Assembly: GCA_001880285.1 (NCBI GenBank) | Contig: CP016269.1 | Span: 744,001 to 808,000, forward strand | From: Flavobacteriaceae bacterium UJ101 | GTDB taxonomy: Bacteria > Bacteroidota > Bacteroidia > Flavobacteriales > UJ101 | Length of the DNA stretch: 64,000 bases | Direction: 5' to 3' | In this document: positions 8,741 to 43,816 of the stretch, one piece after another | Layout of the letters: every line of letters starts with the position of its first letter | Numbering within the stretch: position 1 is the first letter of the stretch | The notes under the pieces: model-generated | Seen by the model: only the letters and a program-made list of their open reading frames with translations | What the model was told of the DNA's origin: nothing | Database searches by the model: none | Position numbers and translations under genes: made by a program

Positions 8741-10699
8741 CTATAAAAAATGATACCTCTTAAAAGCTTCAATCGCTTCATAATCGGCCATACCTAATTC
8801 ATGATATTGTTTTGCTGTATCACGATTTCGATCTTCAGCACGTTGCCAAAATTCTCTTAAATCATCTCCTTGGAACATTACACCATCTTTTTGTGACTGA
8901 TGATAAAAAATAGCCTTTCTTTTTTGTAAAACTTGATCAGGACTCATTGGTACCGCCATTTCAATTTCATTAACAGGCCATTCATGCCAAGCTCCTCGAT
9001 ACAACCAAACCCAACATTCATGCATATATTCTTTGTGTTTTAAATGATCAATTGCACTAAAAATAGCATCCAAACATACTTTATGAGTTCCATGTGGATC
9101 TGCTAAATCTCCTGCTGCATAAATTTGATGAGGTTGTACTTTTTCAATAATACTTTGAACTATTTGAATATCTTCATCACTCAAAGGTGCTTTTTTAACT
9201 CTTCCTGTTTCATAAAAAGGCATATCTAAAAAATGCACTTTTTCATCAGGCAATGTATAAAAACGTGTTGCACCATAACATTCTCTACGACGAATTAATC
9301 CTTTTAATTTTCGTACCTGAATCGAATCAGCTTCATTGAATTTCTTCTGATTAATGCTATCTAAAGCCTCTCTTAAATAACTTGGAGATTCATTATTTTG
9401 ATATTCACTTAACTCTCTTGCAACATCTAAGAATTTAATTGCTTCATCATCTGAAACGGCAATATTTCCAGAAGTCTGGTATACAACGTGCACATCGTGC
9501 CCTTGGTCAATTAAACGCTTAAAAGTTCCTCCCATTGAAATTACATCATCATCTGGGTGTGGACTAAAAATAATCACTCTTTTCTTTTCCGGAATTGCTC
9601 TTTCAGGACGATTGGTATCGTCTGCATTAGGCTTACCTCCCGGCCAACCTGTAATGGTATGTTGCAATGTGTTAAACATTTTGATATTTAAATCATAAAC
9701 TGAACCTGCAATAGCTAATAAATCAGAAAGTCCATTATCATTATAATCTCGATCAGTTAATTTCAAAACAGGTTTCCCAACTTTTTTACTTAACCAAACA
9801 ATGGCTTTTCTCATTAAACTATCTTCCCAGTTGCATGCCTGCACTAACCATGGAGTATGAACTCTTGTTAATTCACTTGAAGCTTCTTTATCTAGTACAA
9901 AACTTGTGTTTTTATGATACTGCAAATAAGTTGCAGGTTTTTCAGAAGATATTTCACCTTCAATTGTTTGAGCTACAATTTCTGCTTTATTATGCCCCCA
10001 AGCCATAATTACAATACGTTTCGCTTGTAATATAGTTGAGATCCCCATAGTAATTGCTCTTTTCGGCACATTATCAAGTCCTAAAAAAGAAGGAGCTGCA
10101 TCCGATCGTGTTAAATGATCTAATGTAATTAAACGTGTAGCTGAATTCAAGTGAGAACCTGGCTCATTAAATCCAACATGTCCTGTTCGCCCAATTCCTA
10201 ATAACTGAAAATCAAGACCTCCATAATCTTTTATTTTCTGTTCATAATTCCTACAAAACATTAAAATTTCACCTTTATCAACCTCTCCACTAGGTATATT
10301 TATATTTTCAGGTAAAATATCAACATGGTTGAATAAATGCTCATGCATAAAATAATGATAACTTTGGTTATCTTCCTTTTGCATAGGATAATATTCATCC
10401 AAGTTAAATGTAACCACATTTCTAAAGCTCAATCCTTCCTCTCTGTGTAAGCGAACTAATTCAGCATATACACGGATAGGTGAAGAACCTGTAGCCAAAC
10501 CTAACACACATTTCTGTCCTGTAGATTCTTTATCACGAATTAAATCGGCTATTTCATTTGCAACACTAATTGAAGCCTCTTCTGCTTTGTTATAAATAAC
10601 ACTATGAATTTTCTCAAAACGTGTCTCTTCATAAGTTCCGGGTGGTTGATACTGTAATGTTTTCATGTCTTGCATTCTAAAAGTTGATTCTTTATTCAT
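8741..10699 (-). CDS. nagB: NagB-like glucosamine-6-phosphate deaminase domain fused to a PIG-L/LmbE deacetylase domain
   Basis: Residues about 30-300 form a NagB isomerase/deaminase domain (glucosamine-6-phosphate to fructose-6-phosphate and ammonia), with Asp101 in FNLDEY, His174 and Glu179. The loop reads GRTGHVGFNEP, so the position of Asp141 in E. coli NagB is Thr172. Residues about 370-640 are a PIG-L/LmbE zinc deacetylase domain with HPDDD (His381-Asp385) and His536/His539 in DPHGTH as metal-site candidates. This two-domain form of about 650 residues is common in Bacteroidota. No separate nagA is seen here, so the C-terminal half is a candidate N-acetylglucosamine-6-phosphate deacetylase; that is inference. 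It lies between susD and the GH20 gene on one strand. Confidence 0.9.
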   Translation of the reverse strand: MNKESTFRMQDMKTLQYQPPGTYEETRFEKIHSVIYNKAEEASISVANEIADLIRDKESTGQKCVLGLATGSSPIRVYAELVRLHREEGLSFRNVVTFNLDEYYPMQKEDNQSYHYFMHEHLFNHVDILPENINIPSGEVDKGEILMFCRNYEQKIKDYGGLDFQLLGIGRTGHVGFNEPGSHLNSATRLITLDHLTRSDAAPSFLGLDNVPKRAITMGISTILQAKRIVIMAWGHNKAEIVAQTIEGEISSEKPATYLQYHKNTSFVLDKEASSELTRVHTPWLVQACNWEDSLMRKAIVWLSKKVGKPVLKLTDRDYNDNGLSDLLAIAGSVYDLNIKMFNTLQHTITGWPGGKPNADDTNRPERAIPEKKRVIIFSPHPDDDVISMGGTFKRLIDQGHDVHVVYQTSGNIAVSDDEAIKFLDVARELSEYQNNESPSYLREALDSINQKKFNEADSIQVRKLKGLIRRRECYGATRFYTLPDEKVHFLDMPFYETGRVKKAPLSDEDIQIVQSIIEKVQPHQIYAAGDLADPHGTHKVCLDAIFSAIDHLKHKEYMHECWVWLYRGAWHEWPVNEIEMAVPMSPDQVLQKRKAIFYHQSQKDGVMFQGDDLREFWQRAEDRNRDTAKQYHELGMADYEAIEAFKRYHFL

Positions 10700-39105: not shown

Positions 39106-39690
39106 TTACTTTTGGAAAGATTTTCCTTCATAAGTATAATCTTCAAAGACCGTATATACGTGATAAATCCCCACTGGCAACCATGAAATATTAACCTCAA
39201 CTTCTTGTAACTTTGGAACATTAAAATCTTTCATAACTTCATTTCCATTATTATCATACACGATATAACGTATAATTTTTCTGTTTACCTCACTAGAAAT
39301 CATTTTTAATGAACTCTCTGTAGAAACAAGTGATAGTACACCTTCAACTACTCTACTTGATCTATCTGTTATACCTCCATCAAGCGATTGTCCTCCATTC
39401 CCTTGTAATTCATCACATAGTTTACCACAAGGAGGTATAAAAATTCCTACTACGATTTCTTTTAAAACTGTTTTAGGTTCTACTATGATGAATTCTTTAC
39501 CTGACTTTATTAAACCACTTACCTCTATATAATGAGGGTATAAAGGTTTTATCTGAAAATCATATTTTAAAGCTCCGCTATAATTGTATGTATTGGTTTC
39601 ATAAATTCGTACTGGAGAATAATTTGATTCTTGAGCTTTCGCATAACATCCCAATAGTACATAGAAGGATAATAGAATTTTTAGGTTCAT
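39106..39690 (-). CDS. Secreted protein with T9SS type A sorting-like tail
   Basis: This is an unrecognised 194-residue exported protein. A signal peptide ends CYAKAQ. The middle is novel and includes a Cys pair in IPPCGKLCDELQGNGGQS. The last 65 residues resemble the T9SS type A (Por) tail: IRYIVYDNNGNEVMKDF, then SWLPVGIYHVYTVFEDYTYEGKSFQK. Export through the type IX system to the cell surface is therefore likely. Its promoter has a perfect -7 box and carries the 22-bp operator shared with the gene at 43,404, so it is probably controlled by the kinase/LuxR pair divergent from it. Confidence 0.65.
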   Translation of the reverse strand: MNLKILLSFYVLLGCYAKAQESNYSPVRIYETNTYNYSGALKYDFQIKPLYPHYIEVSGLIKSGKEFIIVEPKTVLKEIVVGIFIPPCGKLCDELQGNGGQSLDGGITDRSSRVVEGVLSLVSTESSLKMISSEVNRKIIRYIVYDNNGNEVMKDFNVPKLQEVEVNISWLPVGIYHVYTVFEDYTYEGKSFQK

Positions 39691-39715: not shown

Positions 39716-39723
39716 CAAAAATA
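39716..39723 (-). promoter_or_regulatory. -7 promoter box of the T9SS-tail gene
   Basis: The minus strand reads TATTTTTG, an exact TAnnTTTG match, 25 bp before the start codon at 39690. No TTG is present at -33 (TAG instead), which suggests activator dependence. The shared operator box begins 22 bp upstream of it. Confidence 0.65.
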
Positions 39724-39745
39724 ATATAAAATAAGTTTTGACTCT

Positions 39746-39767
39746 ATCCCATAAATCCGGTATTTTT
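39746..39767 (-). promoter_or_regulatory. Shared 22-bp operator box, site A
   Basis: Read on the minus strand it is AAAAATACCGG, then A, TTT, two bases, GGGAT. It matches site B at 43529-43550 in 19 of 22 positions. GGGAT ends exactly 23 bases from the first base of the -7 box, the same as at site B. It also lies 9 bp before the kinase ATG on the other strand, so it may control both genes. Confidence 0.7.
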
Positions 39768-39776
39768 AACAAAAAA

Positions 39777-41678
39777 ATGAAACAACTCTTATTATCCTGT
39801 TTTATTATACCAATTTCTATATTAGGTCAATCCAATAATCTTCTTGAAATAAAGAAACTCATAAAAAAAGCTAATCATTTAGCTGCCTATAATATTGATT
39901 CTACTCTTTATTATGACCATTTGGCAGAAAAAAAAGCCATTACGTATCAACAGGACTCCATCCTTACCCATATTTATTATAATTTAAGTCTTGATTACCA
40001 AACAAAAAAAGATTCTACTTTATTCCTCGAATACTTAAATAAAGCATCCAATAAGGCGCAAAGAGACTCTAATTGGATGATTATTATGCTTTGCAAAATG
40101 ACTTATTCGAAAGAAAAAATTAAAAAAAATCTTTATTCAAATGCTTTAAACTTTCTATTTGAAGCAGAAAAAATATCTATTAATCATAACTTTCCAAATT
40201 ATCTACCTTCTATTAAACTTAAAATTGCAAATATACATTATAAATTAAACGATACTATCAAAGGAATTGAAGTAAATAAATCTACAATACCTTTAGCTAA
40301 GCAATACAATAAAAAAACTCTTATGTCACTATATAATAATATAGGGCAATTTTATATTGAAAATAATTTTGATAGTGCTTCTTATTATTTTAAAGAAGGG
40401 TTGAAAATAGTTAATGAATTTAAAGCTGAATATTACAAAGCTACTTATTATAATAATCTTGGTTTCACTTCTCTATCTCATAAAAAATATGACTCAGCCT
40501 ATTATTTCTTATCAGAAGCTAAAAAATATGCTACGAAGAATAACCAATCTGAAAGTTTATATTACTCTTATTATTACCTAGGACAACTATATGAAAAACA
40601 ACACCAGTATTTAAAAGCTATAGAAAATTATGAAAAAATGTTTCTTTATGAAAAAGAACATGGTGTTGACTCAAAGCAAAAAACTATTGTCTACCAATCT
40701 ATAGCAGAACTATATGCCAACTTAAAACAATATGATAAAGCCTATACTTTTCAACAAAAGCACCAAGCTTTAAAAGACAGTATTTTCAATATCGATAAAA
40801 CCAATGAATTTAATAAAATCCGTACGGAATATGAAGTAGAAAATAAAAACCAGCAAATTGAATTGTTAACAACCGAAAAAGAGGTAGAAGCTTTACGTAA
40901 ACGACAATTACTCTATGCTGGTATCGGAATTTTGATTCCTTTGTTACTTCTCATTCTTTTTTATCGAAATCGAGTAAAATCACAACGTTTATTGCAAGAA
41001 AAAGAACAACAACGGTATGAAGCGGAAAAACAACGTTTGGAAAAGGAAAATGAATTAGAGCATGCCAATGCTTTAATTGAAGGACAAGATCAAGAACGTA
41101 ACCGTATTGCCAAAGAAATTCACGATGGTGTCGGTGCACAATTAGCTGGTTTAAAATTAAATTTAGAACAAACCAACCAAGGACTTCAAAATGAGAATCT
41201 TGCCCTTATCACACAAGACTTAGAACAAGCCTTTACAGAGCTTCGATCTATTTCACATAATTTAAGTACCAATTATTTAGAGGAAAAAACCTTGGATGTT
41301 TTATTATTGGATTTAAAAGCACAATATGAAAAGAACCTTACTTTTACGATTGGACTCTATATCTTTCCACCTGATCTACTCGGAAAGCTAAGTCAAACAG
41401 ACAAACACCATTTATACCGTATTGTACAAGAATTGCTAAACAATACGTATAAACATGCAGCCGCCACACAAGTTCATTTGTCTTTTACGCAACATGAAGA
41501 CAGTTTAAATTTACTCTATGAAGATAATGGGAAAGGATTTGATCCTTCTTCAAAAGCTAAAGGAATTGGATTACACAATATACAAGAACGTGTGAAGGCT
41601 CTAAATGGAACCTTAACCCTCGATTCACAACCTCAAAAAGGAACCACTATTATTATTGATTCACTAAAAACCACCTAA
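39777..41678 (+). CDS. TPR-repeat sensor histidine kinase (HisKA_3 type)
   Basis: This 633-residue sensor has a signal peptide (MKQLLLSCFIIPISILGQ), five or six periplasmic TPR repeats (about 25-365), a coiled coil, and one transmembrane helix near residue 380 (YAGIGILIPLLLLILFY). A second coiled coil leads to a HisKA_3 phosphoacceptor (His449 in AKEIHDGVGAQLAG) and an ATPase domain with ELLNNTYKHA and EDNGKGFDP. I start at the ATG at 39777, because a TTG start at 39738 would add 13 residues before the signal peptide. The response-regulator gene follows directly (1 bp). The operator shared by the flanking secreted-protein genes lies right at its start. Confidence 0.93.
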   Translation: MKQLLLSCFIIPISILGQSNNLLEIKKLIKKANHLAAYNIDSTLYYDHLAEKKAITYQQDSILTHIYYNLSLDYQTKKDSTLFLEYLNKASNKAQRDSNWMIIMLCKMTYSKEKIKKNLYSNALNFLFEAEKISINHNFPNYLPSIKLKIANIHYKLNDTIKGIEVNKSTIPLAKQYNKKTLMSLYNNIGQFYIENNFDSASYYFKEGLKIVNEFKAEYYKATYYNNLGFTSLSHKKYDSAYYFLSEAKKYATKNNQSESLYYSYYYLGQLYEKQHQYLKAIENYEKMFLYEKEHGVDSKQKTIVYQSIAELYANLKQYDKAYTFQQKHQALKDSIFNIDKTNEFNKIRTEYEVENKNQQIELLTTEKEVEALRKRQLLYAGIGILIPLLLLILFYRNRVKSQRLLQEKEQQRYEAEKQRLEKENELEHANALIEGQDQERNRIAKEIHDGVGAQLAGLKLNLEQTNQGLQNENLALITQDLEQAFTELRSISHNLSTNYLEEKTLDVLLLDLKAQYEKNLTFTIGLYIFPPDLLGKLSQTDKHHLYRIVQELLNNTYKHAAATQVHLSFTQHEDSLNLLYEDNGKGFDPSSKAKGIGLHNIQERVKALNGTLTLDSQPQKGTTIIIDSLKTT

Positions 41679-41679
41679 T

Positions 41680-42285
41680 ATGACTCAAATTTCAACCTTG
41701 ATTGTTGATGATCATCAACTCTTTTTAGACGGACTCAACACCGTTTTTTCACAACAAGACGATATTTCTGTCTTACACAGCACCACCTCAGCTAAAGAAG
41801 CTTTAAATTTTGTACAACACACACCTCCTGATTTGATTATTACGGATATTGCCATGCCTGAAATGAATGGTATTGAATTTATTAAAGCCGTTAAAGAAAT
41901 TCATCCTTCTATCAAAATATTGGTTGTAAGCATGTTTCAAAATATGCATTCGTATCAAAATATTGACGGTTATCTTTTAAAAGAAAGTAGTATGGATCGT
42001 GTTTTACAAGTTGTCCGTGGAATTGTACTACGCAATGAAACCCATTATGACTTTGAGGAATCATCTATCGAAATCTATGATTTTAAAGAACATATTTTAA
42101 GTCCTCGTGAAAAGGAAATCATTCAGCTAATCAGTGAAGAACTTACTTCTGATCAAATTGCCAAACGATTGTTTGTCAGTCGTCATACTGTTGAAACACA
42201 TCGTAAAAACATCTTTCTAAAACTTAATGTAAAAAATATTGCAGGTATGATAAAAAAAGCCATGCACTTGGGGGTTATTAATTAG
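41680..42285 (+). CDS. LuxR/NarL-family response regulator
   Basis: A receiver domain with VDDHQLF and phospho-acceptor Asp56 in IITDIAMPEMNG is followed by a LuxR-type helix-turn-helix (about 140-201): LSPREKEIIQLISEELTSDQ and VSRHTVETHRKNIF. The segment between the receiver Ser/Thr (VVSMF) and GYLLKES is about five residues shorter than in NarL, so alpha-4 is reduced. It follows the TPR kinase gene by 1 bp. It is the best candidate to bind the 22-bp box found upstream of the two secreted-protein genes on either side. Confidence 0.93.
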   Translation: MTQISTLIVDDHQLFLDGLNTVFSQQDDISVLHSTTSAKEALNFVQHTPPDLIITDIAMPEMNGIEFIKAVKEIHPSIKILVVSMFQNMHSYQNIDGYLLKESSMDRVLQVVRGIVLRNETHYDFEESSIEIYDFKEHILSPREKEIIQLISEELTSDQIAKRLFVSRHTVETHRKNIFLKLNVKNIAGMIKKAMHLGVIN

Positions 42286-42335
42286 TAAGTATGAAGTTGT
42301 AATATACTTCAAATTTTATGCGCTACAGTTCTAAT

Positions 42336-42361
42336 AGATCCTGAAACAAGTTCAGGATGAC
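42336..42361 (-). repeat. REP-like palindromic element, copy 4
   Basis: An inverted copy; the minus strand stem CCTGAA/TTCAGG surrounds CTTGT. It is the first of three elements between the LuxR gene and the 311-residue protein gene. Confidence 0.8.
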
Positions 42362-42391
42362 AAGGTATAGATGAGTAAATGTTATCCTTAT

Positions 42392-42417
42392 GTCATTCCA
42401 AACTCGTTTTGGAATCT
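42392..42417 (+). repeat. REP-like palindromic element, copy 5
   Basis: A direct copy with stem TTCCAAA/TTTTGGAA around an ACTCG-type loop. The changes relative to the other copies keep pairing. Confidence 0.75.
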
Positions 42418-42432
42418 ATTTTACATACTTTT

Positions 42433-42458
42433 AGATTCTGAAACGAGTTCAGAATGAC
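42433..42458 (-). repeat. REP-like palindromic element, copy 6
   Basis: An inverted copy with stem TTCTGAA/TTCAGAA. It ends 11 bp from the stop of the convergent 311-residue protein gene and may act as its transcript-end hairpin. Confidence 0.75.
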
Positions 42459-42468
42459 AATATCTTTT

Positions 42469-43404
42469 TCATAACTTACTTTTTTCAAGTTGCGTTACTT
42501 TCGCTTTTAAACTTTTAATTTCCTTTTGTTGCTCAATAGTATAAAGTGTTAACTCTTCTATTTTTTGCAATAATAGATTTGTCATTTCTTTTAAATGCAA
42601 TCCTTCTTCTTGAATCTTTTGTGCCGATGGAATGCTAGGTAAATGATTATTCACTTTTGTAAATGTTTCCACTTCTTCTAAAGTAGGCATTACATAATCT
42701 GCTTTTAATTGAGACTCTCCTGTATAGTATTTCTCAAAAACATAATCTGCTGGTACACTTAAGTCCACTCGTACCTCTTCTGCATGGATTTTACCTTTAA
42801 CGGTTAAAAGTTCATCAGGAGACGATGTTCCTATTCCTACTTTCCCCAATAAAGTATTATCACTCTTTGTCGCTAATATAGTATTACCATCTAATGACTT
42901 TATTAAATCTAAATCTCCTCCTACTTCATTATAATTAACCCCTCTAGGGTACTGATAAACTCCCCTTAAAGCCCAATTTATAGCACCAGTAGGTCCACTA
43001 TAACCAAGAGGAATTATTCTTGCCACATTCTTTTCAATCCCTGTTTCAGCTAACCTAACTCTTAACTCATCCATTACTTCAAACTTTGCTTGTGGATTAT
43101 TAATTCCTATACCAAACTTATCAGAAATAACATATGATGTATTACTTTTTAAAGCTGCTATAACCTTATTTTCATCAGAATTCCAAAAACCAAATCCTTT
43201 TGCTTGATTTGTTCCTTCCCTAGAAACTAAAAAAGTAAACGCTTCATTATCTTCACTTATTTTTCCATAAAATCCATCTCTACCTCCACTACTACTTCTT
43301 TCTCTTAAATCAAGAGTTAATCTTCCTGAAATAGTCTGATCTTGTCCAAGCCCAAGTCCTCCTAAAGTAATAGCCGTTAAGGCTGTAAGTATGATTCGTT
43401 TCAT
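42469..43404 (-). CDS. Exported tail-fibre-like protein with C-terminal coiled coil
   Basis: An unassigned 311-residue protein. A signal-like N-terminus ends GGLGLGQ. Two FGIGINNPQAKFEVMDELRV / VGIGTSSPDELLTVKGKI beta repeats follow, like those of Bacteroidota fibre proteins. A conserved segment YVMPTLEEVETFTKVNNHLP and a C-terminal coiled coil (about 268-311) rich in Lys and Glu end it. These features are seen in secreted, surface-exposed proteins of Bacteroidota and do not by themselves mean a phage origin. Its promoter has the operator shared with the T9SS-tail gene, and a palindrome lies in its leader. REP-like triplets bracket it. Confidence 0.6.
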   Translation of the reverse strand: MKRIILTALTAITLGGLGLGQDQTISGRLTLDLRERSSSGGRDGFYGKISEDNEAFTFLVSREGTNQAKGFGFWNSDENKVIAALKSNTSYVISDKFGIGINNPQAKFEVMDELRVRLAETGIEKNVARIIPLGYSGPTGAINWALRGVYQYPRGVNYNEVGGDLDLIKSLDGNTILATKSDNTLLGKVGIGTSSPDELLTVKGKIHAEEVRVDLSVPADYVFEKYYTGESQLKADYVMPTLEEVETFTKVNNHLPSIPSAQKIQEEGLHLKEMTNLLLQKIEELTLYTIEQQKEIKSLKAKVTQLEKSKL

Positions 43405-43464
43405 ATTTAAATTGTTTTAATTATTATATATTATTTAAGTTTCTACTAATCGTTTTCGATACCC

Positions 43465-43478
43465 CCGAAAGCTTTCGG
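43465..43478. repeat. Perfect palindrome in the leader of the 311-residue protein gene
   Basis: CCGAAAGCTTTCGG is a 14-bp perfect palindrome flanked by C-rich bases. It lies between the probable transcript start (near 43,492) and the start codon at 43404. Confidence 0.65.
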
Positions 43479-43498
43479 AGACTCACACTGACATACAT

Positions 43499-43506
43499 CA
43501 AAGGTA
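43499..43506 (-). promoter_or_regulatory. -7 promoter box of the 311-residue protein gene
   Basis: The minus strand reads TACCTTTG, an exact TAnnTTTG match. A TTG lies 20 bp upstream (43527-43529), the classic Bacteroidota -33 spacing. The start codon is 95 bp further on. Confidence 0.7.
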
Positions 43507-43528
43507 CAATGGAAGGAAATAGAAAACA

Positions 43529-43550
43529 ATCCCTGAAAACCGGTATTTTT
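43529..43550 (-). promoter_or_regulatory. Shared 22-bp operator box, site B
   Basis: The minus strand reads AAAAATACCGG, then T, TTT, two bases, GGGAT. It matches site A in 19 of 22 positions at the same distance to the -7 box (23 bases). It abuts the -33 TTG, the position typical of an activator that touches RNA polymerase. Confidence 0.7.
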
Positions 43551-43645
43551 TTTAATTAGTAATGAGTAAGTGCAAACAGTAATCCTAAAATTAGAATAGT
43601 GTTTGTGCCTCTTCATTATATTTTTATTAGGTAAAATGTTGTTAT

Positions 43646-43671
43646 AGATCCCAAAATAAATTCGGGATGAC
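43646..43671 (-). repeat. REP-like palindromic element, copy 7
   Basis: An inverted copy; the minus strand stem CCCGAA/TTTGGG encloses TTTAT, with one wobble-compatible change. Confidence 0.75.
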
Positions 43672-43701
43672 AGGTTCTGAATAGCTTATTGATTACCTTT
43701 T

Positions 43702-43727
43702 GTCATCCTGAACTTGTTTCAGGATCT
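43702..43727 (+). repeat. REP-like palindromic element, copy 8
   Basis: A direct copy with stem CCTGAA/TTCAGG and loop CTTGT, the best match to the family consensus together with copy 4 in inverted orientation. Confidence 0.8.
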
Positions 43728-43753
43728 AAGTACAAGAAATCATGAAGAATAGA

Positions 43754-43779
43754 AGATTTCAAAACAAGTTTGGAATGAC
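43754..43779 (-). repeat. REP-like palindromic element, copy 9
   Basis: An inverted copy with stem CCAAA/TTTGG-like pairing. It is the most diverged copy, with GAAATCT in place of GGAATCT. Confidence 0.65.
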
Positions 43780-43816
43780 ATAACACACTAACAACTCATC
43801 TCAAAATATTATAAAA

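Follow-up and report, generated by a model that had tools for sequence, protein, structure and literature searches.

A candidate NarL-type operator at a fixed distance from the -7 boxes of exported-protein genes in Flavobacteriaceae bacterium UJ101

The window, a stretch of 64,000 nucleotides of Flavobacteriaceae bacterium UJ101 (contig CP016269.1, positions 744,001 to 808,000), contains a two-component pair on the plus strand. The gene of the sensor kinase (39777..41678, +) encodes a protein of 633 aa in which a signal peptide, a TPR region, a HisKA_3 domain (40.7 bits) and a HATPase_c domain (52.6 bits) were recognized from the translation and Pfam. It adjoins the gene of a response regulator (41680..42285, +; 201 aa), for which the translation and Pfam gave a receiver domain (Response_reg, 76.6 bits) and a LuxR-type GerE DNA-binding domain (61.3 bits), both above the cut-off. 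With a receiver, a GerE domain and an adjacent HisKA_3-type kinase, the regulator belongs to the NarL/FixJ (LuxR-type) group. Coordinates and Pfam domains confirm the TPR kinase and LuxR regulator that the first-pass annotation had placed between two 22-base boxes, here called operators A and B.

Gene A (39106..39690, -) is an open reading frame for a small exported protein of 194 aa with a signal peptide, apparent from the translation, and a T9SS-like C-terminal tail. Its description as a T9SS-tail protein holds in part: taken alone, the tail scored 17.2 bits against Por_Secre_tail and stayed below the Pfam cut-off of 27 bits, whereas the T9SS-tail model found 21 of 22 proteins of the same positional family with E values of no more than 0.01 (37.3 bits against Por_Secre_tail for the member in genome G079). 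The tail also gave a profile match to solved T9SS tails; sequence searches of the PDB with P0001 and P0003 alone yielded no matches. Gene B (42469..43404, -) is an open reading frame for an exported, fibre-like protein of 311 aa, which shows 42% identity to its paralogue, the C protein introduced below, and 73% identity over 124 aa to a fibre protein of genome G431. The products of genes B and C matched no Pfam family and gave weak, partial matches to tail-fibre PHROGs (E 2e-4 to 7e-3). Short intergenic repeats (GATCCTGAAACAAGTTCAGGATGACA) occur in both orientations between the genes discussed, at 42330-42460 and 43640-43780 of the window and at 10130-10170 of locus L006.

Operator A (39746..39767, -; AAAAATACCGGATTTATGGGAT) is placed between the divergent gene A and the kinase gene, and operator B (43529..43550, -; AAAAATACCGGTTTTCAGGGAT) lies upstream of gene B. 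Re-reading of the sequence bore out the positions and the strand given for the two boxes as well as their identity of 19/22 bases, three being different. Both are exact matches to the 22-base pattern. When the 3.07-Mb genome was searched with up to three mismatches allowed, five matches were obtained, four of them perfect and one with three mismatches; the reversed-pattern control gave one match under the same settings. The perfect matches are A, B, C (genome position 1996842, +) and D (genome position 2698721, +), the core of B being the same as that of C and D. Dinucleotide shuffles of the window averaged 0.06 matches with three mismatches or fewer, and two matches were reached in none of the 100 shuffles. 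The original observation was an understatement, as the box is present four times in the genome, not twice. The possibility that the boxes occur at random places in the genome away from promoters, raised in the first-pass annotation, was put to the sequence, and all four copies were found at promoters. Operator C precedes the fibre-like paralogue of gene B, and operator D precedes the gene of a protein of 1157 aa that combines a trypsin-like domain with a T9SS type A tail (Por_Secre_tail above cut-off, 45.8 bits with Pfam and 43.4 bits with TIGR04183). The exported products noted behind A and B, a T9SS-tail and a fibre-like protein, are accompanied by exported products behind C (fibre-like) and D (T9SS-tail protease). 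A predicted regulon of at least four exported-protein genes (A, B, C and D) is supported.

Each copy is followed by a TAnnTTTG box, the gap between GGGAT and the box being 22 nt for A, B and C and 23 nt for D. The -7 boxes in the window are TATTTTTG for gene A (39716..39723, -) and TACCTTTG for gene B (43499..43506, -), each 22 nt after its operator; perfect boxes at equal distance had been claimed for these two genes, and both do begin after 22 intervening bases. TAnnTTTG occurs in the window at a frequency of 0.00072 per position, from which the chance of four boxes out of four at a gap of 22 or 23 nt was computed as ~4e-12. Regarding the triplet before the spacer, the contrast between TTG in B and TAG in A had been considered as expected of an activator-dependent promoter; it says little, because TTG is also found in D and TGG in C.

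Operator A includes an imperfect dyad, TACC-N8-GGGA, at 39747-39762, and all four copies can be read as TNCC-N8-GGNA, which is the 7-2-7 geometry of NarL sites with the outer half-sites present throughout. The inner symmetry of A-D is poor (4/8 pairs), the half-sites diverge from the NarL consensus, and the dyad of operator A alone is not significant (p 0.27 by shuffling). The reading as a NarL-type dyad draws on the near-perfect inverted repeats in Sinomicrobium and the dyads of relatives, both described below, and on counts of the dyad-plus-box pattern: without the inner bases, this pattern has six matches in the genome and none in the reversed control, namely A-D, one site beside a paralogous pair (pair 2, see below) and one uncertain site. 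An asymmetric, AraC-like site was the first reading and was dropped given the palindromic Sinomicrobium variants and the dyads of relatives. Judged by its sequence, the 22-base box can be taken as a degenerate, imperfect NarL-type dyad and a candidate operator. In a start-site map of Flavobacterium psychrophilum the -7 box occupies -12 to -5 (PMC9723704), which together with the 22-nt gap puts the dyad axis at -43.5.

Copies of a dispersed repeat or transcription terminators would also resemble each other, by copying and not by function, and some TACCAT..ATGGTA palindromes do stand at gene ends; one of them, site E, lies right behind a stop codon and could be a terminator. A-D themselves are weak palindromes with little flanking similarity, and they are not transcribed from their -7 boxes because they lie upstream of them. 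Their spacing is fixed, and the spacing statistics disfavour this explanation further, which leaves it barely credible.

For comparison, relatives that encode a close homologue of the regulator (E <= 1e-45, 43-52% identity) were sought, with partial sampling, in the order, the family of G079 and the genus of G431. The 20 loci that were long enough were read. All 20 have the pair divergent from a small exported gene with a T9SS-like tail (111-222 aa). Conservation in relatives with the same kinase/LuxR pair, which the first-pass annotation had named as a check, was found in 19 of them, where a dyad precedes the -7 box of the divergent T9SS-tail gene, in the place occupied here by operator A and at a like distance (22 nt in 17 loci, 21 nt in two). 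The sole exception is G048, in which the pair is present and no dyad was found. Of the 19 loci, 13 have TAnnTTTG as the -7 box and the six of genus g22 have CAnnTTTG; 5-8 of the 9 pairs of each dyad are symmetric.

The bases of the dyad vary by genus, while the box and the spacing stay. Genera g5 and g22 have TACCAT..ATGGTA or a near variant, genus g267 has TACCAAAATCTTGGTA or a near variant, and four genomes of genus g44 have TCAC-N8-GTGA; the own site A (AAATACCGGATTTATGGGAT) differs from that of the relatives (AAATACCATATTTATGGTAT) at three positions. The recognition-helix region of the g44 regulator starts with S[VI]NT, whereas most of the other regulators have S[KR]HT there. In g44 the half-site changes along with this region; the covariation tracks phylogeny and amounts to a single event. 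Among 148 relatives, which included no other member of the family of the source organism, matches to the exact site at one mismatch were chance-like and lacked a correctly placed box, and a phylum sample of 395 genomes, not selected for the pair, held the exact site together with a box-like sequence in only one other genome.

The fixed distance to the -7 box could also reflect a promoter part, such as an upstream element for an alternative sigma factor acting with no separate activator. The turnover of the upstream bases between genera beside a constant box and spacing speaks against this, as does the position of the dyad next to a LuxR-type pair in all relative loci read. Furthermore, the TAnnTTTG -7 box is of the ordinary sigma-A type (PMC9723704). 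A promoter part is accordingly considered very improbable, and an operator bound by a LuxR-type regulator is the preferred interpretation.

In the relatives G079, G095 and G657, one same-strand stretch encodes a small T9SS-tail protein together with a fibre-like product and a further T9SS-tail protein that has features of a metallopeptidase, clear in G657 and weak in G079 and G095. A possible interpretation is that these three kinds of product are scattered over the present genome (A; B and C; D) under one operator; gene D encodes a serine protease, which outside the tail is not homologous to the metallopeptidases of the relatives. Genus g267 (L293, L295, L296 and L297) has minimal T9SS-tail proteins of 111-112 aa, composed of a signal peptide, a glycine-rich stretch such as NNGIRIGNGNSG and the sorting tail.

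Across genome contigs the exact site yielded mostly chance matches, from which those in Sinomicrobium and Sphingobacterium were distinguished by their spacing. Three Sinomicrobium species gave 15, 20 and 28 matches to the pattern at up to two mismatches, compared with 2, 1 and 0 for the reversed control, and their variants include near-perfect inverted repeats, e.g. AAATCCCTGATTTCAGGGAT. All 63 sites, unselected by box, were scored for exact TAnnTTTG at gaps of 0-35: 16 had it at gap 22, four at gap 23 and one at gap 26, with none elsewhere in this range. The binomial probability of 20/63 at gap 22-23 is ~1e-46, a value which treats the sites of related species as independent. Some of these sites lie upstream of TPR-kinase and LuxR genes, which fits autoregulation there. 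The Sinomicrobium regulators are only distantly related to the present one (~32-36% identity), so the likeness of the sites may be ancestral or convergent. Sites in Sinomicrobium L116, L123 and L125 separate tandemly arranged TssD (Hcp) family genes of a Bacteroidota type VI secretion system, and a related regulator may control T6SS genes in that genus. A T6SS link was also considered for the present genome and was rejected, with no TssD match found here; the control of that search was uninformative. Three Sphingobacterium sites (L120 4412-4431, L086 6042-6061 and L059 7108-7127) combine the box with a TTTG-type -7 element 22 nt away, and the genes behind them gave no Pfam or NCBIfam match.

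The genome holds three close kinase/regulator pairs, that of the window being pair 1, whose regulators share 56-63% identity and have similar recognition helices. Pair 2 (L216) has a divergent T9SS-tail gene with the dyad TACCCTCTAGATGGTA (7/9 pairs symmetric), followed after 21 nt by TACCTTTG, and then two fibre-like genes; pair 3 (L217) has no such T9SS-tail neighbour. The resemblance of the three regulators, and the location of B-D far from, or not adjacent to, the divergent promoter, would agree with true operators of which B-D or all four are bound by one of the two paralogous LuxR proteins, or with sites common to all three. This is unlikely, given that pair 2 has its own, different dyad while operator A, of the A-D type, sits in the intergenic region of pair 1, and that relatives with one detected close homologue have the dyad in the intergenic region of that very pair. 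Since pairs 1 and 2 each have their own operator type in their own intergenic region, A-D are most economically assigned to pair 1.

Two palindromes were observed elsewhere in this genome. The first, TACCATTAATATGGTA (L307 4925-4940; G000:C1:1606921, +), is of the operator type of the relatives and stands 22 nt before TCATTTTG; it is flanked by a fibre-like gene and the gene of a 1364-aa exported T9SS-tail protein, followed by that of a large SpvB/Rhs-like protein, and is a candidate target of paralogous pair 2 or 3. The second, TACCATAAATATGGTA (L239 8152-8167; G000:C1:1306120-1306169, -), has TATATTTG at 22 nt; the stop codon of a LysM-like gene immediately precedes this palindrome, and a panE-like gene lies downstream of it. 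It could be an operator or a terminator.

Taken together, the box is very probably the operator of the LuxR/NarL-type regulator at 41680-42285, the partner of the TPR kinase, and a regulator dimer would activate A-D. The TPR kinase would sense a signal from the envelope or the outside and phosphorylate the LuxR-type regulator, the dimer of which would bind the dyad with its axis near -43.5 and, by the simplest mechanism, would activate transcription as a class II activator. The predicted targets would be the small T9SS-tail protein (A), the fibre-like proteins (B and C) and the trypsin-like protease with a T9SS tail (D). The dedicated surface-protein regulon under the pair that was proposed in the first-pass annotation is supported, having withstood both refuting tests that can be computed, with binding of the regulator predicted from the sequence. 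Operator A ends 9 bp before the start codon of the kinase gene, so a regulator bound there probably acts back on its own pair as well, and autoregulation of either sign is probable; a search for a consistent -7 box of the kinase gene found none.

A comparable site is known from NarX/NarL of E. coli (ogt, yeaR), where a LuxR/NarL-type regulator recognizes an inverted repeat of two 7-base elements 2 bp apart, a geometry in which A-D can be read. At ogt, which NarL activates, a single 7-2-7 site lies just upstream of the promoter, centred at -44.5 (compared with -43.5 here) and abutting the -35 element (PMC7419079). The present system differs in its Bacteroidota promoter with TAnnTTTG at -12 to -5, its TPR sensor kinase, its exported-protein targets and the departure of the A-D half-sites from the NarL consensus. 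FimS/FimR of Porphyromonas gingivalis is a Bacteroidota two-component system which activates surface-protein genes, FimR binding the mfa1 promoter directly (PMC1974823); the text searched of that report gives no operator consensus for FimR. The kinase of the window partly matches the FimS model over the TPR region (55.8 bits against a curated NCBIfam cut-off of 600, residues 174-405 only) and was not accepted as a FimS; the target genes differ as well. PorA of P. gingivalis, a small T9SS-tail protein of 246 aa, acts with the two-component system PorXY-SigP (PMC7712824), so that there, too, a small T9SS-tail protein goes with a two-component system. PorX carries a PglZ domain and binds SigP, not DNA (PMC7712824), whereas the regulator described here has a GerE DNA-binding domain.

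By analogy with PorA, a signalling role of gene A can be hypothesized. That the small T9SS-tail protein is part of the signal, beyond being a target, is a tentative and rather doubtful proposal, which is suggested by the T9SS-tail gene divergent from the kinase in 20/20 relatives and by the near-minimal protein of one genus. The protein could report T9SS flux, or the TPR sensor could recognize it, after secretion, as a protein or peptide signal; the system would then be a self-inducing switch for exported proteins, loosely like PorA upstream of PorXY.

Promoters of Bacteroidota differ from those of E. coli, and to our knowledge the rules of activated transcription and the operators of TPR-kinase/LuxR systems have been little worked out in this phylum. 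Neither the operator nor the module (TPR kinase, LuxR regulator, small T9SS-tail partner gene and operator rule) turned up in the open-access literature searched. Systems of this kind are already known; what sequence comparison supports here is a regulon of exported-protein genes controlled by a two-component system through a position-locked NarL-type operator. The analysis provides a searchable operator rule (dyad, 22 nt, TAnnTTTG), connects this rule with one particular family of regulators across two families of the order and puts forward defined exported proteins as targets. What TPR sensors detect and how activators of Bacteroidota touch RNA polymerase are thereby made directly testable, in a case from the Flavobacteriales whose sequence shows a putative switch, the site at which it would act on the DNA and the genes that it would control.
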